From NCBI RefSeq assembly GCF_002844395.1, contig NZ_CP025197.1:1860001-1924000 (forward strand): a stretch of DNA of 64,000 nt, written 5' to 3'. Positions 47,500 to 61,285 of this stretch are shown in pieces. Every line of letters starts with the position of its first letter. Position 1 is the stretch's first letter. The DNA comes from Acetivibrio saccincola. GTDB taxonomy: Bacteria > Bacillota > Clostridia > Acetivibrionales > Acetivibrionaceae. The translations under genes and the position numbers were made by a program. The notes below the pieces were generated by a model, which saw only the letters and a list, made by a program, of their open reading frames with translations, made no database searches and was not told the origin of the DNA.

Positions 47500-48621
47500 A
47501 TGTGGAAAACAAGCCCTAAAAAAACAACCTTGTGTTTATGCCTGATACTTATATTCAATCTGGTTACAGGGTGTTTTTTTTCAAAAAAATCAAATGAGGA
47601 ATTATATACTGAGGCAATTAACCATATAAAAGAAAAAGCATACCCCCAGGCAATGGGTATTTTAATGAAGCTGGGAGATTATAAAGACTCTGAAAATTTA
47701 TTGGAACAAATACGGTATTTAATTGAAGGTTCTTATATATGTAACGGTACTTGGGCCGTGGGAGCCATTACAAAAGACGGCAGGGTGCAAATAGCCTATA
47801 AAGGTGATAATAACAAATATACCGGTACAGAATCATTGAATAATATAAAAGCCATATGTATGGGCGGTAATTCTGTTGAGGCTCTTACAAAGGACGGAAA
47901 AGTAATAACAACAAGTACCATTTCAAAAGAAGCATTGTTGAACTTTAAATCTGACATAACCAGGGAAATAGCCAATGTTATTGAAGAAGTATCCAGTTGG
48001 GACAATATAAAAGCATTTAAGGCAAACTATCCTCAATCTGCTGTTGCAGTTACCAATGACGGATTTGTTTATACAGCTTATCCTTTCCTCGGTAAAAAAG
48101 ATGTTAAAGCAATTTCTAAGTGGAAAAATATAGTATCAATTGCAGACGGAATGGGTTATATAGCGGGTCTTAAAAAAAACGGTACTGTTGAATGTCGTGT
48201 TTTTTCTTATCCCGGAAAAATAAAAACATCAAAGTGGAAAAACATTGTTTCTATATCTGCAGGCGGCGACCTTATCGGTTTAAAAAAAGACGGAACCGTT
48301 GTATCTGCCGGTACAAACAAATTTGGAAGAGGAGAAGTATCCACCTGGAAAGACATAATTGCCATATCCAGCTGTGATATTTATACAATGGGTTTAAAAA
48401 GAGACGGTACTGTGGTTATAACTGAAGGTGCCACCGAAAGAAAAATAGATGTAAGTGACTGGACTGATATTGTAGCCATTGCAGCCGGTGAATATTTTGC
48501 CATAGGTTTAAAATCCGACGGCACAATGGTTTTATCAGGGGACTGCAGCCCTAGTGGTATTGAGACTCCTGATGTATTAAATATGAAGGATTTGTTTGTT
48601 CCGGAAATTATTATTAATTAG
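47500..48621 (+). CDS. Lipoprotein with RCC1-like beta-propeller repeats
   Basis: The 373-residue protein has a lipobox signal peptide (CLILIFNLVTGC, Cys25). A short TPR-like helical part (LYTEAINHIKEKAYPQAMGILMKLG) follows, then repeated blade units (IVSIADGMGYIAGLKKNGTV, IVSISAGGDLIGLKKDGTV, IIAISSCDIYTMGLKRDGTV, IVAIAAGEYFAIGLKSDGTM). The units match RCC1/BLIP-II-type propellers, which generally bind protein partners. It is exported and lipid-anchored. GGAGG precedes the ATG. A second, broken lipoprotein gene follows 27 bases later. Confidence 0.85.
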   Translation: MWKTSPKKTTLCLCLILIFNLVTGCFFSKKSNEELYTEAINHIKEKAYPQAMGILMKLGDYKDSENLLEQIRYLIEGSYICNGTWAVGAITKDGRVQIAYKGDNNKYTGTESLNNIKAICMGGNSVEALTKDGKVITTSTISKEALLNFKSDITREIANVIEEVSSWDNIKAFKANYPQSAVAVTNDGFVYTAYPFLGKKDVKAISKWKNIVSIADGMGYIAGLKKNGTVECRVFSYPGKIKTSKWKNIVSISAGGDLIGLKKDGTVVSAGTNKFGRGEVSTWKDIIAISSCDIYTMGLKRDGTVVITEGATERKIDVSDWTDIVAIAAGEYFAIGLKSDGTMVLSGDCSPSGIETPDVLNMKDLFVPEIIIN

Positions 48622-52184: not shown

Positions 52185-53218
52185 ATCAAAACTAAATATA
52201 ACAGCGGACTAAATCTGATTTTAAAATATGTAATATATGTGTCTCCTAAAGTAAAAGAAAAGCTTAAAAAGTATAAAAATAAATTAAAAACCACCAATGA
52301 CAATGAGCTTAAAAAACAGGCATTATCCAGTATACATACAAAAAGTTTTCACTGTATAGGAGGAAGCATTTATGCCTTGTACCCGGATGCTGACTTTAGC
52401 TCTTCTATACAATTTATTTGCGCATTACAGACAATAAGCGACTATCTTGACAACCTTTGTGACAAAACCAAAATTTCAGATGAAAAGGCATTCCGCCATC
52501 TTCATTTATCCCTTTTAGATGCTACAGATACTTCATCTTTTTTTGGGGATTATTATAAATACTATCCCATAAAAGAAGACAGCAAATACCTTCATTACCT
52601 TGTTTCAGAGTGCAGGTCTTCCCTTTTAAACTTACATTCATATGAAAAAGCACTCCCCTACATAAAAAAATACGTAAACTTCTATTCAAATTTGCAAACC
52701 TTTAAACACCTCTCTATTGATGTAAGGGAAAAATACTTAATAAACTGGGGCAAAAAACATTTAATTAACTATCCTGAAATAAGTATATGGAAATTTTAGC
52801 TGCAACCGGATCAACTTTAGGTATTTTTGCTATGTATGCAGCATCCTACGACCCTTTTTTTAAAGAAGAAGATTTTTCATCTTTGGACAAAGCTTATTTT
52901 CCCTGGATTTGCGGTCTTCACATTTTACTGGATTACTACATTGACTATATGGAAGATTTAGAAGAAAAGCAGCTAAACTTCACTTTTTATTATAAAGACA
53001 TAAAATTATGCGAAGAGAGGATAATATTTTTCTTAAAAAAATCTTTAGAAATGTGCAGCACTTTAAAATACCCTCTATTTCACAAAACAGTGGTAAAAGG
53101 CCTTCTTGCCATGTATTTATCAGATAAAAAAGCCTTTCAAAAACACAATAAAAAAGTAAGTACAAGCATTGTAAAAGAAGGAGAAAGTAGTACCGTATTT
53201 TACCACTGTACATGGTAA
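52185..53218 (+). pseudogene. YtpB-like tetraprenyl-beta-curcumene synthase (DUF2600), frameshifted
   Basis: The family N-terminus reads NLILKYVIYVSPKVKEKLKK, but the only frame upstream of GTG 52239 starts at ATC (52185) after GGGAGG, so the start codon seems mutated. The frame then breaks in the TGGAAATTTTAGC run (52794-52797). One extra T joins EISIWKF to LAATGSTLGIFAMYAASYD, both strongly DUF2600. The C-terminus ends STVFYHCTW. YtpB converts tetraprenyl diphosphate to a C35 terpene that strengthens membranes and spores. Confidence 0.8.
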
Positions 53219-53501: not shown

Positions 53502-54734
53502 TTATACTTTTTTAAATATAATGGAAGCGTTGTGTCCTCCAAATCCAAAAGAATTTGATAAAACAGCCTTTACTTTCTCTTCCCTTCCCCTATTTTCTAC
53601 ATAGTCCAAATCACATTCCGAATCCTTTTCCCTATAGCCTAAAGTCTCATGAATAAAACCGTCTTCTATTGATTTTACACACACTACGGCTTCCACGGCA
53701 CCTGCCGCCCCTAAAAGGTGGCCTATCATGGACTTGGTGGAGTTTACCGGGATGCTGTATGCCAAATCCCCAAAAACTTCTTTTATCGCCATTGTCTCAT
53801 ACTTATCATTTAAAACGGTAGAGGTGCCGTGGGCATTTATATATGAAATGTCACAAGGACTCATTGAGGCGTCCGAAAGAGCTAATTCCATTGCCCTTGC
53901 AGCACCTTCCCCCAAAGGCGCAGGAGCTGTAAGGTGATATGCATCAGAGGTAAACCCGTAACCTGCAACTTCCGCATATATTTTTGCATTTCTCCTTAGC
54001 GCATGGGAATATTCTTCCAGTATCAAGACCCCTGCCCCTTCCCCCATTACAAAACCGCTTCTTTCCCTGTCAAAGGGTATGGAAGCCCTGGATTTATCTT
54101 CACTTAAAGTAAGTGCATTCATGTTTGTAAAGCCCGCCGCCATAAGAGGGTTTATGCATGCTTCACTTCCCCCGCATATAACTATATCCGCATAACCGTA
54201 CTGTATACTCCTCATTGCTTCACCAATTGCATTTGCCCCCGCTGCACAGGCTGTTATAATTGCATTGCATATTCCTTTTGCACCAAATTCTATTGCTATG
54301 CTTCCTGCTAAAATATTTGAAAGGGATTTTGGAATCAAAAGAGGTGAAACCATGTTCATCCCGCCGGTGTGTAAATTAATTGTCTCTTTTACTATTGTGT
54401 TTATTCCGCCAACCCCGTTTCCCATTACAACACCAAGTCTTCTTTTATCAATATCAGAAGGAGAAAGACCTGCGTCAATAAAGGCTTCTCTTGCCGCAAT
54501 TATTCCAAATTGACAAAAACGGTCGCTTCTTAATATCTGCTTTTTGCTAAAATGGTCTTCAAGCTTTAAATCTTTTACTTCTGCAAAAAGTTTTGCCTTT
54601 GTATTTTTTACGTCAAAAAGAGTAGGATAGTCAATGCCACAAACACCTTTTTTAACACTGTTCCAAAAATCCTCTGCATTGTTTCCAATGGGAGTAACTG
54701 CACCAACACCTGTTACAACAACCCTTCGTTTCAT
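53502..54734 (-). CDS. fabF: 3-oxoacyl-ACP synthase II (FabF type)
   Basis: The 410-residue ketosynthase has MKRRVVVTGVGAVTPIGNN at the start, the catalytic Cys in ITACAAGANAIGEA, the two His in NAHGTSTVLND and KSMIGHLLGAAGAVEAV, and FGFGGHNAS near the end. It condenses malonyl-ACP with acyl-ACP. Its ATG overlaps the acpP stop by four bases, so the two are co-translated. Unlike general fab clusters, it faces the biotin operon across a BirA operator, suggesting a dedicated role in pimeloyl elongation. Confidence 0.95.
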   Translation of the reverse strand: MKRRVVVTGVGAVTPIGNNAEDFWNSVKKGVCGIDYPTLFDVKNTKAKLFAEVKDLKLEDHFSKKQILRSDRFCQFGIIAAREAFIDAGLSPSDIDKRRLGVVMGNGVGGINTIVKETINLHTGGMNMVSPLLIPKSLSNILAGSIAIEFGAKGICNAIITACAAGANAIGEAMRSIQYGYADIVICGGSEACINPLMAAGFTNMNALTLSEDKSRASIPFDRERSGFVMGEGAGVLILEEYSHALRRNAKIYAEVAGYGFTSDAYHLTAPAPLGEGAARAMELALSDASMSPCDISYINAHGTSTVLNDKYETMAIKEVFGDLAYSIPVNSTKSMIGHLLGAAGAVEAVVCVKSIEDGFIHETLGYREKDSECDLDYVENRGREEKVKAVLSNSFGFGGHNASIIFKKV

Positions 54735-54982
54735 TTAACCTGCCCTTTCGCACATTTAATTTGTCCTTCTACGTATTTTACTATATCCTCAACAGTTTCA
54801 AAATTTAAAACATCCTGCTGGTCAATGTCTATTTTGTACTTATTATCCAGCGACAAAACTACCTGGGATATGTCAAGGGAATCAGCATCCAATTCATCAT
54901 AAAGATGGCTCTTTAATGAAACCTCATCTTCCGGCAATCCCATAACATCTATTAATATTTTTTTAACTTCATCAAATACCAT
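54731..54982 (-). CDS. acpP: Acyl carrier protein, biotin-locus associated
   Basis: The 83-residue ACP has the phosphopantetheine Ser in ELDADSLDISQVV (residue about 36) and the usual acidic helices. It differs from typical AcpP in the LDISQ segment and a Lys/Gln C-terminal tail (QIKCAKGQVK). GGAGG precedes the ATG. It is the first gene of the acpP-fabF operon, whose promoter (TTGACA-17-GATAAT) lies in the shared BirA operator. Confidence 0.93.
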   Translation of the reverse strand: MVFDEVKKILIDVMGLPEDEVSLKSHLYDELDADSLDISQVVLSLDNKYKIDIDQQDVLNFETVEDIVKYVEGQIKCAKGQVK

Positions 54983-55152
54983 ATAAAAAAACCTCCTGCT
55001 TTTACATTTAATCTTATTTATTTAAACTTCTCTATATAAAGTGCTTTATATCTAAACCAACTTATAAATAATGCATTTTAATTTTATACTTTTTAATTTT
55101 ATACTTTAAATTTAACATCATCTTCTGTCTAAACTATATTTGCCTAAACTAT

Positions 55153-55181
55153 ATTATCTTTAAAGTATATTATATTGTCAA
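55153..55181 (-). promoter_or_regulatory. Promoter of acpP-fabF
   Basis: On the minus strand TTGACA (55181-55176), 17-base spacer, GATAAT (55158-55153). The -35 lies within the left arm of the BirA operator. Confidence 0.75.
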
Positions 55182-55207
55182 CCTATTTTTAGTTTTTGGT
55201 TGACAAT
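55174..55207. promoter_or_regulatory. BirA (biotin repressor) operator between acpP-fabF and bio genes
   Basis: ATTGTCAACC and its exact complement GGTTGACAAT are separated by 14 bases, the form of a biotin-repressor operator (TTGTNAACC-N14/15-GGTTNACAA). Each arm contains a TTGACA -35 sequence for the divergent transcripts, so binding should block both. Confidence 0.9.
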
Positions 55208-55228
55208 CTTTTTTTATTGTTATATTTT
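55200..55228 (+). promoter_or_regulatory. Promoter of the bio operon
   Basis: TTGACA (55200-55205) with TATTTT 17 bases later (55223-55228); a TATATT lies at 15 bases. The -35 is in the right arm of the BirA operator. Placement of the -10 is uncertain. Confidence 0.6.
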
Positions 55229-55276
55229 ATAATTGTCGCTCTTTATACTAGTGCTATTTTATTTAGGAGGATTTTT

Positions 55277-56443
55277 TTGGAGTATATTAATGAGATTTTA
55301 TCTAATTTAAAGAAAAACAATAAATACAGGGGAGAATTTAAAAAACTTCAGTCACCCCAAAAAGAAAAAGTTGTTATAGACGGAAGGGAAATAATTCTAC
55401 TTGGTTCTAACAATTATTTAGGTCTTTGTGACCACAAAGAAGTAAAAAAAGCCTCTATGGAAGCAATAGAAAAGTATGGGGTGGGTGCAGGAGGATCAAG
55501 GCTTACAACAGGTTCATACACACTCCATAGTATGCTGGAGGAAAAAATCAAAGATATTAAAGGCACCCAAAAAGCATTGGTGTTTAATACCGGCTACATG
55601 GCCAATTTAGGAATTATACAAGCCCTTTGCAATAAAGACTGGGTTATATTTTGCGATAAATATAATCATGCAAGCATTTTAGACGGCTGCCTTTTAAGCG
55701 GGGCCAAGTTTTTAAGATACAGGCACTGTGATATGGATGATTTGTCTTATAAGCTGGAAAATTTTAAAGGAAAGTGCAACTTAATTGTTACAGACGGGGT
55801 ATTCAGCATGGACGGTGATATTGCCCCTTTAGATAAAATTGTGGAAATTTCAAAAAAGCACAACGCCGTTATAATGGTAGACGATGCCCATGGATTTGGG
55901 GTTTTAGGAAAAGACGGGGCAGGGACTGCCTCATATTTTGGAGTAAACAGTGAAATTCATATTCACATGGGAACATTAAGCAAGGCTGTAGGCTCAATAG
56001 GAGGCTATGCCGCTTCAGAAGAATACTTTATTGAGTACTTTAAAAATTTCTCCAGAAGTTTTATTTTCTCAACGGCGCTTCCTCCTTCATCCGTTGCAGC
56101 CTCCATTAAAGCCCTGGATATTATAAAAAACGAACCTTTAAGAAGGCAGCGGCTTTTGGAAAACTCACACCGGTTTAAAATGGAGCTTAAAAATTTAGGA
56201 TTTAAAATCCCGGACACAGTAACCCCCATAATACCCGTAATTGTGGGAGATGAAGAAAAGACACTGGAATTTTCCCGGCAGCTTTTATATGACAGGATAT
56301 ACATTCCTGCAATAAGACCTCCTACGGTGCCAAAAGGAAGCAGCAGGCTCAGGATTTCAATTACTGCAGCCCATGCCTGGGAGGATTTGGAGTATGTGAT
56401 AGAAAGGCTTAAAACTACAGGCAGAAAGCTGGGGTTGATTTAA
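55277..56443 (+). CDS. bioF: 8-amino-7-oxononanoate synthase BioF
   Basis: BioF condenses pimeloyl-ACP (or CoA) with alanine. The TTG at 55277 is the start (MEYINEILSN): AGGAGG lies six bases before it, and upstream codons read through the promoter. The PLP lysine is Lys236 (GTLSKAVGSIGG); other signatures are NYLGLCDH, GAGGSRLTTG, and VDDAHGFGVLG. The 388-residue length is normal. It heads bioF-bioH-bioC-bioB-bioD-bioA. Confidence 0.97.
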   Translation: MEYINEILSNLKKNNKYRGEFKKLQSPQKEKVVIDGREIILLGSNNYLGLCDHKEVKKASMEAIEKYGVGAGGSRLTTGSYTLHSMLEEKIKDIKGTQKALVFNTGYMANLGIIQALCNKDWVIFCDKYNHASILDGCLLSGAKFLRYRHCDMDDLSYKLENFKGKCNLIVTDGVFSMDGDIAPLDKIVEISKKHNAVIMVDDAHGFGVLGKDGAGTASYFGVNSEIHIHMGTLSKAVGSIGGYAASEEYFIEYFKNFSRSFIFSTALPPSSVAASIKALDIIKNEPLRRQRLLENSHRFKMELKNLGFKIPDTVTPIIPVIVGDEEKTLEFSRQLLYDRIYIPAIRPPTVPKGSSRLRISITAAHAWEDLEYVIERLKTTGRKLGLI

Positions 56444-56444
56444 G

Positions 56445-57170
56445 ATGACAAGACATATGGTTGTGCTTACAGGTTGGGCTGTAGGTAAATTTCCCTGGAA
56501 AACTTTATTTGGCCTTTTGGAAAAACATTTTGAAATTACATTTGTGGACTGGGATGACGTTTTTTCAATAGATGGTTTTAAGAAAAAAGTCCTACACATA
56601 ATAGATGATAAAATAAAAGGCGGTAAAAATTTTACCCTTATGGGCTGGTCCTTAGGCTCTATGGTAGCAGTGGAAATTGCACAAATTCTTTATAAAAGAA
56701 TTGATAATTTAATATTGATAAGCGGCACTTTAAAATTTGTAAATGATAAAGACGACATTTATACCGCCCTTTGGTCAAAAGATACCATAGATAAAATGAT
56801 TTATATGCTAAAAAGCGATAAAGACAGCACTTTAAATAAATTTTACAAAAACTTTTTTTCTAAAACTGAAAAAAGAGACGGACATTATGAAAGATTTATG
56901 AAAGAAATAAAATTTCATAAACCTTGCTGCAATATAAATTCACTTATATGCGGCCTTGAATATCTTAAAAACACGGATTTAAGGGAAATTTCCCTTCCCC
57001 TCTCCCCTCTTGTTATACACGGGGACAGGGACGTTATTTGTCCGTACAAATCAAGTGAGTACATAAAAGAAAAATTTAAAAATGCAAAATTGGTAACATT
57101 GCAAAATACAGGGCACATACCCTTTTATACCGACCCTAGTAAGCTTTATGAAATAATAAAAAGACATTAA
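56445..57170 (+). CDS. BioH-like alpha/beta hydrolase (pimeloyl-ACP methyl ester esterase)
   Basis: The 241-residue alpha/beta hydrolase has the nucleophile elbow GWSLGSMVAVE (Ser about residue 72), an Asp region HGDRDVICP, and the C-terminal His in NTGHIPFYTDP. By position between bioF and bioC it is expected to release pimeloyl-ACP from its methyl ester, the BioH role. Sequence alone does not separate BioH from other isofunctional esterases (BioG, BioK, BioJ), so no symbol is given. It starts one base after the bioF stop. Confidence 0.8.
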   Translation: MTRHMVVLTGWAVGKFPWKTLFGLLEKHFEITFVDWDDVFSIDGFKKKVLHIIDDKIKGGKNFTLMGWSLGSMVAVEIAQILYKRIDNLILISGTLKFVNDKDDIYTALWSKDTIDKMIYMLKSDKDSTLNKFYKNFFSKTEKRDGHYERFMKEIKFHKPCCNINSLICGLEYLKNTDLREISLPLSPLVIHGDRDVICPYKSSEYIKEKFKNAKLVTLQNTGHIPFYTDPSKLYEIIKRH

Positions 57171-57184
57171 GAGGTCAGAGAATT

Positions 57185-57994
57185 ATGATTGATAAGGAAA
57201 AATTAAAAAGAAGGTTTAGCAGAAATGCAAATCAATATGATAAATATGCAAAAGTACAAAAAAAGATGGGGGATGTTTTAATTGAAAAAATAAAATCCAC
57301 CAAATGCCGGTACAAAAACATACTTGAAATAGGCTGTGGGACAGGATATGTTACAACGGCTTTATTTGAGCTTTTTAAAGACTCAAATATAACCGCCGTT
57401 GACATTGCACCAGGCATGATAAACCACGTAAAATCCAAATTATTAGATAAAAGAGTAGAATTTATCTGTGCCGATGCAGAAGAAATGGATTTTGATAAAA
57501 AATATGACCTTATTATATCAAATGCCACATTCCAGTGGTTTAATAATTTAGAAAACACTTTAAAAAAGCTGGCAGATACTCTGGCTCCTGGTGGCTTTAT
57601 GTGCTTTTCAACCTTTGGGAAAAACACTTTTACAGAGCTTAAAAAGTGCTACCAAAAGGCAAGTGTATACTTTGGCATAAAAGATACCATTTACTCAAGC
57701 CAGCCCTTTTTATCCCTTGAGGACTACAAAAAAATATGCAGCAGTATATTTAATGAAAAATTTACCCTTTCTTTTATGGAGACCTATGAATATGAGTATT
57801 TTAACTGCTGCAAAGACTTTCTTTACTCAATTAAAAAAATAGGTGCAAATAACAGCCAAAAAAACATAATAAAAGTCCCTCTGGACTTTATTGACAAAGT
57901 AATTGACATATATGATAAGGACTTTAAAAAAGACGGCAAAGTTGCAGCAACATATCACAGCTTGTTTGTTTTTATTTCTAAAAATGCAGTATAA
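57185..57994 (+). CDS. bioC: Malonyl-ACP O-methyltransferase BioC
   Basis: BioC methylates malonyl-ACP so that fatty acid enzymes extend it to pimeloyl-ACP. The 269-residue protein has the family N-terminus KLKRRFSRNANQYDKYAKVQKKM, the SAM site ILEIGCGTGYVTTAL, and FDKKYDLIISNATFQWFNN, all typical BioC. It begins 14 bases after the esterase gene. It relies on the FabF/ACP system, which may explain the adjacent acpP-fabF. Confidence 0.96.
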   Translation: MIDKEKLKRRFSRNANQYDKYAKVQKKMGDVLIEKIKSTKCRYKNILEIGCGTGYVTTALFELFKDSNITAVDIAPGMINHVKSKLLDKRVEFICADAEEMDFDKKYDLIISNATFQWFNNLENTLKKLADTLAPGGFMCFSTFGKNTFTELKKCYQKASVYFGIKDTIYSSQPFLSLEDYKKICSSIFNEKFTLSFMETYEYEYFNCCKDFLYSIKKIGANNSQKNIIKVPLDFIDKVIDIYDKDFKKDGKVAATYHSLFVFISKNAV

Positions 57995-58038
57995 AGCTTA
58001 AAAATATTTTAAATTAAATGTATTTGGAGGTACAAATT

Positions 58039-59019
58039 ATGAAAGAGTTTATTTTAAATCTAAAGGATAGAATACTAAAAGGTGAAAGCATTGCTTTTGA
58101 TGAAGCTTTAAAACTTATAAAAATAGATGAAAATGACACCTGTTCCCTTAATGTTTTATTTGAATCTGCCAATGAAATACGTGAAAATTTGGTGGGAAAA
58201 AAAGCTGACCTTTGTATAATTTTAAATGCCAAATCAGGAAGATGCTCTGAAAACTGCAAATTCTGTGCCCAATCCGCCCATTACAACACAGGGGTTTTAG
58301 AATATGATCTTTTGGAATACTCCGAAGTTTTGGAAAAAGCTTTGGAAGCTAAAGAAAACGGTGTCCACAGGTTTTCACTAGTTACCAGCGGAAAAGGGGT
58401 TGATAAAGATGAGGATATTGAAAAGCTAGCTAAAATATATGAAAGGCTTTCAAAGGACGTAGGTATAGAACTTTGTGCATCCCATGGCATTTTAACCTAC
58501 CGGCAGGCAAAAACACTTAAAGAGGCAGGAGTTATTACCTACCACCACAATGTGGAAACAAGCAAAAACCATTATAAAAACATATGCACCACCCATACCT
58601 ATGAAGACAGGGTAAAAACAATAGAAAATGCCAAAAAAGCAGGGCTGCACGTATGCTGCGGCGGGATAATAGGAATGGGTGAAAGCTTAGAAGACAGGAT
58701 AAATATGGCCTTTGAAATAAAAAGCCTTGGTATAAAATCAGTACCTGTAAATGTCCTGACCCCCATTAAAGGAACCCCTCTTGAAAATTTAGAAGTATTG
58801 TCGCCTATGGAAGTTTTAAAAACCATGGCTGTTTACAGATTTATACTCCCTGACTGCTACATCAGGTATGCAGGAGGCAGAATGGCACTAAAAGACAAGC
58901 AAGCCCTTGGCTTTAAAGCCGGAATAAATGCAGCACTTACCGGCAACTACCTCACTACAACAGGAAGTGATGTAAAAAAGGATAAAGCCATGATAATGGA
59001 GGCAGGATTTACTATATAG
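58039..59019 (+). CDS. bioB: Biotin synthase BioB
   Basis: BioB is a radical-SAM enzyme that inserts sulfur into dethiobiotin. The ATG at 58039 is chosen (MKEFILNLKD) with GGAGGT upstream rather than the ATG at 58018. The cluster cysteines are Cys69, Cys73 and Cys76 (GRCSENCKFCAQS), and the C-terminal RYAGGRMALKD and TGNYLTTTGSD motifs are present. Length about 326 residues. Confidence 0.98.
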   Translation: MKEFILNLKDRILKGESIAFDEALKLIKIDENDTCSLNVLFESANEIRENLVGKKADLCIILNAKSGRCSENCKFCAQSAHYNTGVLEYDLLEYSEVLEKALEAKENGVHRFSLVTSGKGVDKDEDIEKLAKIYERLSKDVGIELCASHGILTYRQAKTLKEAGVITYHHNVETSKNHYKNICTTHTYEDRVKTIENAKKAGLHVCCGGIIGMGESLEDRINMAFEIKSLGIKSVPVNVLTPIKGTPLENLEVLSPMEVLKTMAVYRFILPDCYIRYAGGRMALKDKQALGFKAGINAALTGNYLTTTGSDVKKDKAMIMEAGFTI

Positions 59020-59177: not shown

Positions 59178-59879
59178 ATGGGAAAAGGCATATTCATTGC
59201 AGGAACTGATACAGGTGTTGGAAAAACCTTCATCACTGCAGGCTTAAACTATTGTTTTCAAAAGGCAAACTATAAATGCTGCTCTTTTAAGCCTGTACAG
59301 TCAGGAGGAATAGAAAAAAACGGCTCCCTTATACCAGGGGATATAGAATTTGTAAAAAAACTAACCGGTATTGATGAACCTTATGAAAAATTAAACTGCT
59401 ACTGCCTGAAGGAAGAAGTTTCGCCACATTTAGCCGCTGAATTAGAAGGTGTTGAAATTGACACAAATAAGTTATTGGAAAGCTTTAATTATTTAAAAGA
59501 AAAATATAACTATACACTGGTGGAAGGTGCCGGAGGCTTAATTGTCCCCATAATAAGGGATAAATATTATATGTACCACCTTATAAAAGATTTAAATCTG
59601 CCTGTTTTACTTGTGGCAAGGGCAGGTGTGGGAACAATAAACCACACGGTCCTTTCTTGTGAATTTGCAAAAAACACTGGCATCAAAATTAAAGGAATAA
59701 TTATAAACGGCTATACCAATACATTTTGTGAAAAAGATAATATAGATATAATTGAAAAAGCTACAGGAATTCCTATAGTTTCTGTAATGCCTCAGATAAA
59801 TGTATATGATTTTTCTCACTTAAAAAGCTACTATAAAAAACATATTGAATTAGATAAAATAATAAGCTTATGTTTTTGA
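59178..59879 (+). CDS. bioD: Dethiobiotin synthetase BioD
   Basis: BioD closes the ureido ring of biotin with CO2 and ATP. The 233-residue protein has the P-loop GTDTGVGKTFITAGL (residues 9-23), the substrate loop SFKPVQSGG, and VEGAGGLIVPI. A 158-base gap with short repeats (ATATAGAAATTATCAAT) separates it from bioB. Confidence 0.97.
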   Translation: MGKGIFIAGTDTGVGKTFITAGLNYCFQKANYKCCSFKPVQSGGIEKNGSLIPGDIEFVKKLTGIDEPYEKLNCYCLKEEVSPHLAAELEGVEIDTNKLLESFNYLKEKYNYTLVEGAGGLIVPIIRDKYYMYHLIKDLNLPVLLVARAGVGTINHTVLSCEFAKNTGIKIKGIIINGYTNTFCEKDNIDIIEKATGIPIVSVMPQINVYDFSHLKSYYKKHIELDKIISLCF

Positions 59880-59926: not shown

Positions 59927-61285
59927 ATGGATGAAATGAAGAGTTTACAGGAAAAGGACTTAAAATACATATGGCACCCCTGCTCCCAGATGAAAGACTA
60001 TGAGGAGTTCCCCCCTATTGTAATTAAAAGAGGGGAAGGTGCTTATTTAGAAGATATAAACGGAAAAAGGTATTTAGACGCAGTGTCATCCTGGTGGGTA
60101 AACCTTTTTGGCCACTCCAACAAGCGCATTAATGAGGCTTTGTACAGGCAGGCAAACAAATTGGAACATGTGATTTTTGCAAATTTCAGCCATGAGCCGG
60201 CTATTGAACTTTCTGAAAGAATTGTAAATATTCTTCCTGAAGGCCTTAACAAAGTGTTTTTTGGGGATAACGGTTCTTCCGCCGTTGAAATTGCATTAAA
60301 GCTAAGTTTTCAATACCACCAGCAAACCGGGAAAACAAAAAAAGTGCGCTTTTTAGCCTTAACTGATGCCTACCATGGTGAAACAATAGGGGCTCTTTCT
60401 GTGGGAGGGATTGATTTATACAGTAAAATCTATAAACCTTTATTACTTGATGTCATACGTTCCACTGGTCCTGACTGCTACCGCTGCAAATTTAATAAAC
60501 ACAGAGAAAGCTGCAGTGCAGAATGCTTTACATTTATTGAAGAAGATGTTAAGAAAATGCATGAAGAAATAAGCGCCATTATTGTAGAACCTTTAGTTCA
60601 GTGTGCTGCAGGAATGAAAATATACCCTCCCGTATACCTTAAAAAGCTTAGGGCACTTTGTGATAAATACCACATTAACCTTATTGCAGATGAAATAGCC
60701 GTTGGATTTGGGCGGACAGGCAAAATGTTTGCATGTGAACATGCCGGAATTTCCCCGGATATAATATGCCTTTCTAAAGGTCTTACAGCAGGTTACATGC
60801 CTCTTTCCTTAGTGGTTATGACAGATGAAATATACAATGCCTTTTATGACGACTACCTCAAAATGAAGGCATTTTTACACAGTCACAGCTACAGCGGCAA
60901 TCCTTTAGGATGTGCTGTTGCAATTGAATCTTTAAATATATTTGAGGATGAAAAAATACTGGAAAAAAACAGCCAAAAACAAGCTTATCTTAAAAATAAG
61001 GCGGAAAAAGAGCTCCTAAATATCCCATACGTTGGAGAATACCGGCAAATGGGTATGATAGGTGCAATTGAACTTGTAAAAGACAGAAAAACGAAAGAGC
61101 CTTTTGAGTCTGAAAAAAGGGTTGGATACAATATATATAAAAAAGCTCTTAAAAAAGGCGTTATTTTAAGACCTCTGGGAAACATAATATATTTTATGCC
61201 CCCTTATGTTGTAGAAAATAAAGATATTGACTTTATAGTAAGGGTATGTAAAGAGTCTATAAATGAGTATTTTAAAGAAATATAA
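59927..61285 (+). CDS. bioA: Adenosylmethionine-8-amino-7-oxononanoate aminotransferase BioA
   Basis: BioA converts KAPA to DAPA using S-adenosylmethionine as amino donor. The 452-residue class III aminotransferase has the PLP lysine in [26 protein letters not shown] near the start, [13 protein letters not shown], and [18 protein letters not shown]. It is the last gene of the operon and is followed by a terminator. Confidence 0.97.

Follow-up and report, generated by a model that had tools for sequence, protein, structure and literature searches.

A predicted BirA operator between divergent biotin and acpP-fabF genes of Acetivibrio saccincola, and a candidate dedicated ACP-ketosynthase pair

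Introduction

How cells keep scarce biotin precursor chains out of bulk fatty acid synthesis is, to our knowledge, not settled. A locus of Acetivibrio saccincola gives this question a specific form: genes for an acyl carrier protein (ACP) and a beta-ketoacyl-ACP synthase stand back to back with a biotin gene cluster, with a palindrome between them. Do the two transcripts share one BirA operator, and does the pair serve biotin synthesis? We consider it likely that the palindrome is a BirA operator for both transcripts and that the predicted role of acpP-fabF lies in the pimelate stage, with a charge-poor docking surface between the two proteins. The window referred to throughout is the whole stretch of 64,000 nucleotides that was analysed (contig NZ_CP025197.1, positions 1,860,001 to 1,924,000), and coordinates without a unit are counted from its first base.

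Genes of the locus

The left side of the locus is formed by two genes on the minus strand. The acpP-like gene (54731 to 54982) encodes the putative dedicated ACP of 83 amino acids (PF00550, E=1.8e-11) with an intact DSL motif, and its stop is overlapped by the start of the fabF-like gene (53502 to 54734), whose 410-residue product scores as a beta-ketoacyl-ACP synthase II (TIGR03150, 575 bits against a cutoff of 494) and retains the catalytic Cys-His-His residues, its TACA, AHGTST, and GHLLGA motifs being intact. The plus strand carries bioF (55277 to 56443; TIGR00858, 467 bits), for which the TTG start was chosen because AGGAGG lies at 55265 to 55270, followed by a bioH-like alpha/beta hydrolase gene (56445 to 57170; PF00561), the malonyl-ACP O-methyltransferase gene bioC (57185 to 57994; TIGR02072, 216 bits, cutoff 185), and the genes for biotin synthase (bioB, 58018 to 59019; TIGR00433, 413 bits), dethiobiotin synthase (bioD, 59178 to 59879; TIGR00347, 162 bits), and adenosylmethionine-8-amino-7-oxononanoate transaminase (bioA, 59927 to 61285; TIGR00508, 586 bits). 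The bioH-like product, encoded between bioF and bioC, is the predicted pimeloyl-ACP methyl ester esterase; its best NCBIfam model is bioH (TIGR01738) at 96 bits, below the cutoff of 207.

No FabG- or FabZ-type gene was detected beside acpP-fabF by Pfam among the 20 window open reading frames scanned (46.9 to 63.7 kb), and tblastn of the housekeeping FabG against the window gave no match at an E value of 1e-3. A second cluster, plsX-fabH-fabD-fabG-acpP-fabF, lies at ∼1.963 Mb of the genome; its genes were named by eye from the translations and its FabF by a separate search, and this FabF is 54% identical to the one in the window.

Further left in the window, a DUF2600 gene is split over two frames (52239 to 52799 and 52787 to 53218, both PF10776) with its last part missing, and of a polyprenyl synthetase gene seemingly only the first part is left, from 53402 leftward (by eye; no Pfam match). 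Judged from these frames, the DUF2600 and polyprenyl synthetase pair is decaying in the window genome. A 373-residue protein with RCC1-like repeats is encoded at 47500 to 48621 (PF13540, over cutoff).

A palindrome that fits the BirA consensus

The predicted BirA operator occupies 55174 to 55207, with no strand of its own, between the divergent acpP-fabF and bioF-bioH-like-bioC-bioB-bioD-bioA genes and 69 nt from the bioF start. An exact inverted repeat had been claimed here from the sequence, and so it proved: the 10-nt arms ATTGTCAACC (55174 to 55183) and GGTTGACAAT (55198 to 55207) are separated by a 14-nt spacer and pair with 0 mismatches. The published BirA consensus is TTGTAAACC-N14/15-GGTTTACAA (PMC545781), and the window box agrees with it, with C/G at the variable position. 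Searched as TTGTNAACC-N14/15-GGTTNACAA, the palindrome matches with 0 mismatches at spacing 14, the one such match seen in the window, whereas shuffled sequences are expected to give 0.60 matches at up to 3 mismatches. The pattern WTTGTNAACCN{13,16}GGTTNACAAW occurs at one place in the 3,604,547-base genome and its reversed control at none, and no second box with 0 or 1 mismatch was found elsewhere in the 3.6 Mb. When up to 3 mismatches are allowed, TTGTNAACC-N-GGTTNACAA shows no genome-wide excess over the control (11 versus 16 for N14 and 22 versus 23 for N15).

The BirA gene lies elsewhere, at 3.28 Mb, and encodes a 337-residue protein with HTH_11, BPL, and BPL_C domains. The genome has one detected PF03099 match, and that protein carries the N-terminal DNA-binding domain.

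Predicted divergent promoters with -35 hexamers in the palindrome arms

Each arm contains TTGACA, one per strand, with GATAAT to the left and TATTTT to the right, each 17 nt away, just as the sequence-only reading had described. For the predicted acpP promoter, the -35 hexamer lies in the left arm (55176 to 55181, minus strand; sequence and promoter scan) and the -10 hexamer GATAAT at 55153 to 55158 (minus strand; promoter scan), 17 nt from it. For the predicted bioF promoter, the -35 hexamer TTGACA lies in the right arm (55200 to 55205, plus strand; promoter scan and congener alignment), with a -10 region at 55221 to 55228 (plus strand) that is ambiguous: TATTTT (55223 to 55228, spacing 17) and TATATT (55221 to 55226, spacing 15, with a preceding TG) overlap in TTGTTATATTTTATAAT, a stretch that the congener G005 shares without change and G007 nearly so. 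On the acpP side, the left-hand GATAATATAGTTT is conserved in both, and the adjoining spacer varies.

The promoter scan matched 11 of 12 positions on the acpP side and 10 on the bioF side, and since it reported 69 promoter-like sites in 14 kb versus 58 in shuffles, the scan as such is weak evidence. The -35 hexamers are only 18 nt apart, so that simultaneous occupation of the window box by a polymerase on each side is improbable. A tandem 15-bp repeat, TGTCTAAACTATATT / TGCCTAAACTATATT, lies at the acpP -10 region (55126 to 55155), where G005 and G007 have a single copy of AAACTATATT.

Conservation in the genus

The sequence-only reading had proposed that one BirA operator serves both transcripts and that related genomes be searched for the arrangement. 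That search recovered the box, both promoters, and acpP-fabF in three congeners (a Clostridium MAG, Herbivorax sp. ANBcel31, and Acetivibrio alkalicellulosi), and the proposal is upheld, as a prediction, by the fit to the consensus, the helix-turn-helix-bearing BirA, and the conservation of the box with both promoter halves in all three. The order acpP-fabF, box, and bio genes was found in four of the five genus genomes searched (the window genome and the three congeners), four genomes of one genus not being independent observations; the fifth, 55% complete, gave weak partial FabF matches inside large frames. The boxes of the three congeners all have a -10 on both sides at exactly 17 nt. In the intergenic alignment, the box and the right-hand promoter stretch are conserved and much else has drifted, and the left-hand GATAATATAGTTT is kept in three of the four aligned genus members. 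G005 and G007 have the gene order of the window, with TTGTCAACC-14-AGTTGACAA separating acpP from bioF. In A. alkalicellulosi (G004, locus L063) the cluster is split: the box TTGTAAACC-15-AGTTGACAA separates acpP-fabF from the divergent bioH-like and bioC genes, and bioF-bioB-bioD-bioA lies about 10 kb off behind its own second box. This split, which keeps acpP-fabF with the predicted pimelate genes, is the strongest single hint at function.

The congeners also provide a reason to consider that the box controls the bio operon only, with acpP-fabF a neighbouring lipid pair that has its own promoter and an unrelated role. In all three, fabF is followed on its own strand by an open polyprenyl synthetase gene (PF00348), to which an open DUF2600 gene (PF10776) is convergent, so another role for the acpP-fabF transcript is possible, and across the Clostridial boxes described below those with a -10 match are mostly one-sided (48 of 54 among the matches listed). 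We nevertheless consider bio-only control unlikely, since in the window genome acpP-fabF is intact and constrained while its polyprenyl synthetase and DUF2600 neighbours are broken, the split cluster of A. alkalicellulosi keeps acpP-fabF with the bioH-like gene, bioC, and a box, and conservation extends to the acpP -10, which lies 17 nt from the left arm.

Descent, selection, and predicted docking surface of the ACP-FabF pair

In a phylogenetic tree, the four dedicated FabFs form one clade (support 100/100, stem 0.6), and the other full-length FabFs of the family lie in a separate clade of 15 rows. Support for the exact sister group is weak (94/68), and with so long a stem the placement of the dedicated clade is unsure. 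A recent duplication of the housekeeping fabF was considered as the origin and rejected, the dedicated FabFs forming a clade of four apart. Both genes are under purifying selection similar to that on the bio genes, with dN/dS values of 0.098, 0.101, and 0.156 for fabF and of 0.071, 0.140, and 0.042 for acpP, the last with near-saturated dS. As a separate observation on ketosynthase-like sequences, G000:C1:2669992-2673891 (L005, L006) holds a 2667-residue open frame with two ketosynthase-like stretches, and frames of 2600 to 2770 residues with similar ketosynthase matches occur in several family genomes.

In Escherichia coli, FabF residues Lys65, Arg68, and Lys69 contact AcpP residues Glu13, Gln14, Asp35, and Asp38, FabF residues Arg127, Lys128, and Arg206 contact AcpP residues Glu47, Glu48, Glu53, and Asp56, and FabF Ile108 is a gating residue of the acyl pocket (PMC7138838). 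We transferred this numbering by alignment landmarks (Cys163, Phe202, and Asp35-Ser36). All four dedicated FabFs have Leu at position 68, Asn at 127, Met at 128, and Asn at 206, whereas among 92 compared FabFs Lys or Arg occupies position 68 in 90, position 128 in 91, and position 206 in 65; position 127 varies in the compared FabFs, so that the change there is not exclusive. Position 124 is Gly in the dedicated enzymes and Lys or Arg in 89 of the 92, and position 108 is Val in place of the Ile of 87 of the 92. Lys65 and a basic residue at 69 are retained.

The partner has changed as well. All four dedicated ACPs carry Gln41, Asp47, Asn48, and Lys49, while among 37 comparison ACP segments (Bacillota, from 37 of 93 loci, the other 56 having given none) Asp47 and Asn48 are absent and Gln41 and Lys49 are found in 5 and 2, respectively. 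Over residues 41 to 53, three of the dedicated ACPs have a net charge of 0 and one has -1, whereas the 37 comparison segments range from -2 to -7. Because charge is lost on both partners at a known ACP-FabF contact patch, these sequences suggest that the patch has been largely neutralised and forms a private docking surface.

These changes also bear on the idea that acpP-fabF is co-regulated with the bio genes but is a general elongation pair, raising fatty acid synthesis flux when biotin, and hence acetyl-CoA carboxylase, is limiting. By its family score the FabF qualifies as a full KAS II, and BirA of Staphylococcus aureus also controls a fatty-acid-related operon, yhfS-yhfT (PMC6391492). 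However, the usual ACP contact residues are lost from the FabF and acidic residues from the ACP, and the physical linkage runs to the bioH-like gene and bioC, which makes a general elongation role quite improbable.

BirA boxes across the Clostridia

With a relaxed pattern, TTGTNAACYN{14,15}RGTTNACAA, the box was present in 117 of 391 Clostridial genomes, and the reversed control pattern in 5 of 391. Within 5 kb of 77 boxes among the matches listed, the window's own not included, there was a bio-gene match at 26 and a birA match at 7; 44 of the 77 had no match to the queries, a set from which bioY was absent, and 13 lay within 4 kb of the end of their locus. A Pfam scan of 11 box-neighbour open reading frames outside the genus identified 10 as BioY and the eleventh as a phosphorylase beside the L200 box. 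That the palindrome is the site of another regulator or a chance promoter pair is hardly credible given its fit to the published BirA consensus, its uniqueness in the genome, and the bioY, bioB, or birA genes that adjoin the same pattern elsewhere.

A fab-type match within 5 kb was found for 4 of the 77 boxes among the matches listed, namely, the three congeners and L167, the last rejected as a fab neighbour on account of an SDR-type FabG match at 37%; beyond the three congeners, no ACP or FabF was found within 5 kb of these boxes. Among the 80 nearest FabF loci, bio genes or a box turned up in the three congeners and in no other, and a neighbour could be missed at the 13 loci that are under 12 kb. 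In the related genus g3 of the family, a box accompanies a bioB-D-F-bioH-like-C-A cluster that lacks a nearby acpP-fabF (L056, L057, and L168), so the pair is not required for the bioH-like/bioC pathway.

We further looked at the arms of 78 distinct boxes among the matches listed, the window's included (156 arms; loci L052 to L060 and L167 to L232), which stem from related genomes and do not count as independent. A -10-like hexamer (at least 4 of 6 positions, with A2 and T6, counted from the TTNACA of the arm) is found at exactly 17 nt for 60 of the 156 arms against 3 to 16 at 36 other spacings between 8 and 44, and at 5 of 6 or better for 40 arms against 0 to 9. An outward open reading frame follows 58 of the 60 arms with a 17-nt -10 versus 74 of the 96 remaining arms. 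Because 54 of the 78 boxes have a -10 at exactly 17 nt on at least one side, the BirA half-site doubling as a -35 element is probably a common design in Clostridia.

A -10 on both sides at exactly 17 nt was found for 6 of the 78 boxes among the matches listed, these being the window box, the acpP-fabF sites of its three congeners, L199, and L200. The L199 box has bioY on one side and no open reading frame of 70 residues on the other, and the L200 box has bioY on one side and a nucleoside phosphorylase gene on the other, so that their two-sided pattern may be chance. When 16 to 18 nt is allowed, 61 of the 78 boxes have a -10 on at least one side and 13 on both, against 17 to 30 and 0 to 5, respectively, for six control spacings; the two-sided pattern is thus less exclusive than at exactly 17 nt. 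The sequence-only reading had called repressor arms that double as both promoters less usual; for one arm such use is not unusual (54 of 78), and for both it is (6 of 78 among the matches listed): the special feature of the window box is the two-sided use of its arms, which is rare among the 78. In two loci, L207 (5046 and 5159) and L209 (4988 and 5101), bioB and bioY diverge, with bioD-bioA following, and between them lie a pair of BirA boxes at a distance of 113 nt, a two-box solution to divergent control.

Discussion

From the sequences, gene family assignments, conservation, selection, and paired residue changes described above, we infer BirA binding, the transcription start sites, a response to biotin, the substrate of the pair, and its insulation. 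When biotin is scarce, the site would be free, and RNA polymerase would take the TTGACA of each arm as a -35 element and, from two divergent promoters, transcribe acpP-fabF in one direction and bioF-bioH-like-bioC-bioB-bioD-bioA in the other. With ample biotin, BirA with biotinoyl-AMP would cover the palindrome, hide both -35 hexamers, and stop both transcripts. BioC would methylate the malonyl group on the dedicated ACP, and the dedicated FabF, together with housekeeping FabG and later enzymes, would extend it to the C7 methyl ester, which the BioH-like esterase would free and BioF would take on. The matching charge loss on the docking patches would separate the pair from bulk fatty acid synthesis.

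The boldest form of this proposal is a hybrid, insulated pimelate pathway, in which the methyl-ester route of BioC/BioH would be served by a BirA-controlled private ACP and ketosynthase and kept separate from housekeeping fatty acid synthesis, with co-evolved charge-poor docking and back-to-back promoters which, their -35 boxes being the two arms of one operator, would also compete; we give it about an even chance of being right. With no FabG- or FabZ-type gene found beside the pair, the dedicated ACP must also use housekeeping enzymes, which weakens the case for full insulation. What the locus offers is a natural ACP and ketosynthase, linked to BioC and a BioH-like esterase, that appear to be controlled by biotin and whose docking interface is altered. 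The box survey further suggests a design rule, with Clostridial BirA boxes tending to hold a promoter -35 inside the repressor half-site, by which a symmetric box could drive and silence two promoters.

Divergent control by BirA is familiar from E. coli, where bioO sits between bioA and bioBFCD and one BirA operator shuts two divergent transcripts. Both of those transcripts carry bio genes, without an ACP or FabF target, whereas one side here is acpP-fabF. The E. coli operator also differs in sequence and spacing from the Bacillus type (PMC4016012). The operators of Bacillus subtilis (bioWAFDBI, yhfUTS, and yuiG) are palindromic like ours and are served by a BirA with an N-terminal helix-turn-helix, binding in EMSA requiring biotin and ATP, but the three sites as described are 5' regions of one transcript each (PMC4016012), and ours faces two divergent ones.

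As for the pathway, the window resembles E. coli in having bioC, along with a predicted BioH-like esterase, in its cluster, and encodes an additional ACP and FabF with them, where E. coli relies on general fatty acid synthesis enzymes (PMC10102598). The BioZ route of alpha-proteobacteria likewise employs a specialised ketoacyl-ACP synthase for biotin, although BioZ is KAS III-like and bypasses BioC-BioH (PMC7645780, PMC8024396), whereas the window enzyme is a KAS II encoded beside bioC. Our search of the open-licence literature found no account of a Clostridial acpP-fabF pair that stands with bioC under BirA control.

The closest precedent is Desulfovibrio. Its extended biotin operon, which includes genes for an ACP and a ketosynthase, was predicted in 2004 to adjoin a BirA site (PMC545781), and the cluster genes were found by mutant fitness in D. 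vulgaris in 2023 to be important for growth without biotin (PMC10102598). The sequence-only view that BirA control of a dedicated ACP-ketosynthase pair is less usual must therefore be narrowed to its combination with bioC and a bioH-like gene. Both systems have a BirA-linked ACP and FabF (DVU2562 and DVU2563 in Desulfovibrio) adjoining bio genes and a predicted BirA site. The Desulfovibrio cluster, as described, includes FabG- and FabZ-like genes but neither bioC nor bioH, a methyl-ester-free synthesis having been proposed, and its site separates birA from the operon; in the window the site lies between acpP and bioF, no cluster FabG or FabZ was found beside the pair, and bioC and a bioH-like gene are present. 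The BirA switch itself is thus of a known kind, and what appears to be new is its paired target, a dedicated ACP and FabF combined with a BioC/BioH-type pathway, together with the paired charge loss that would give the two proteins a private interface.
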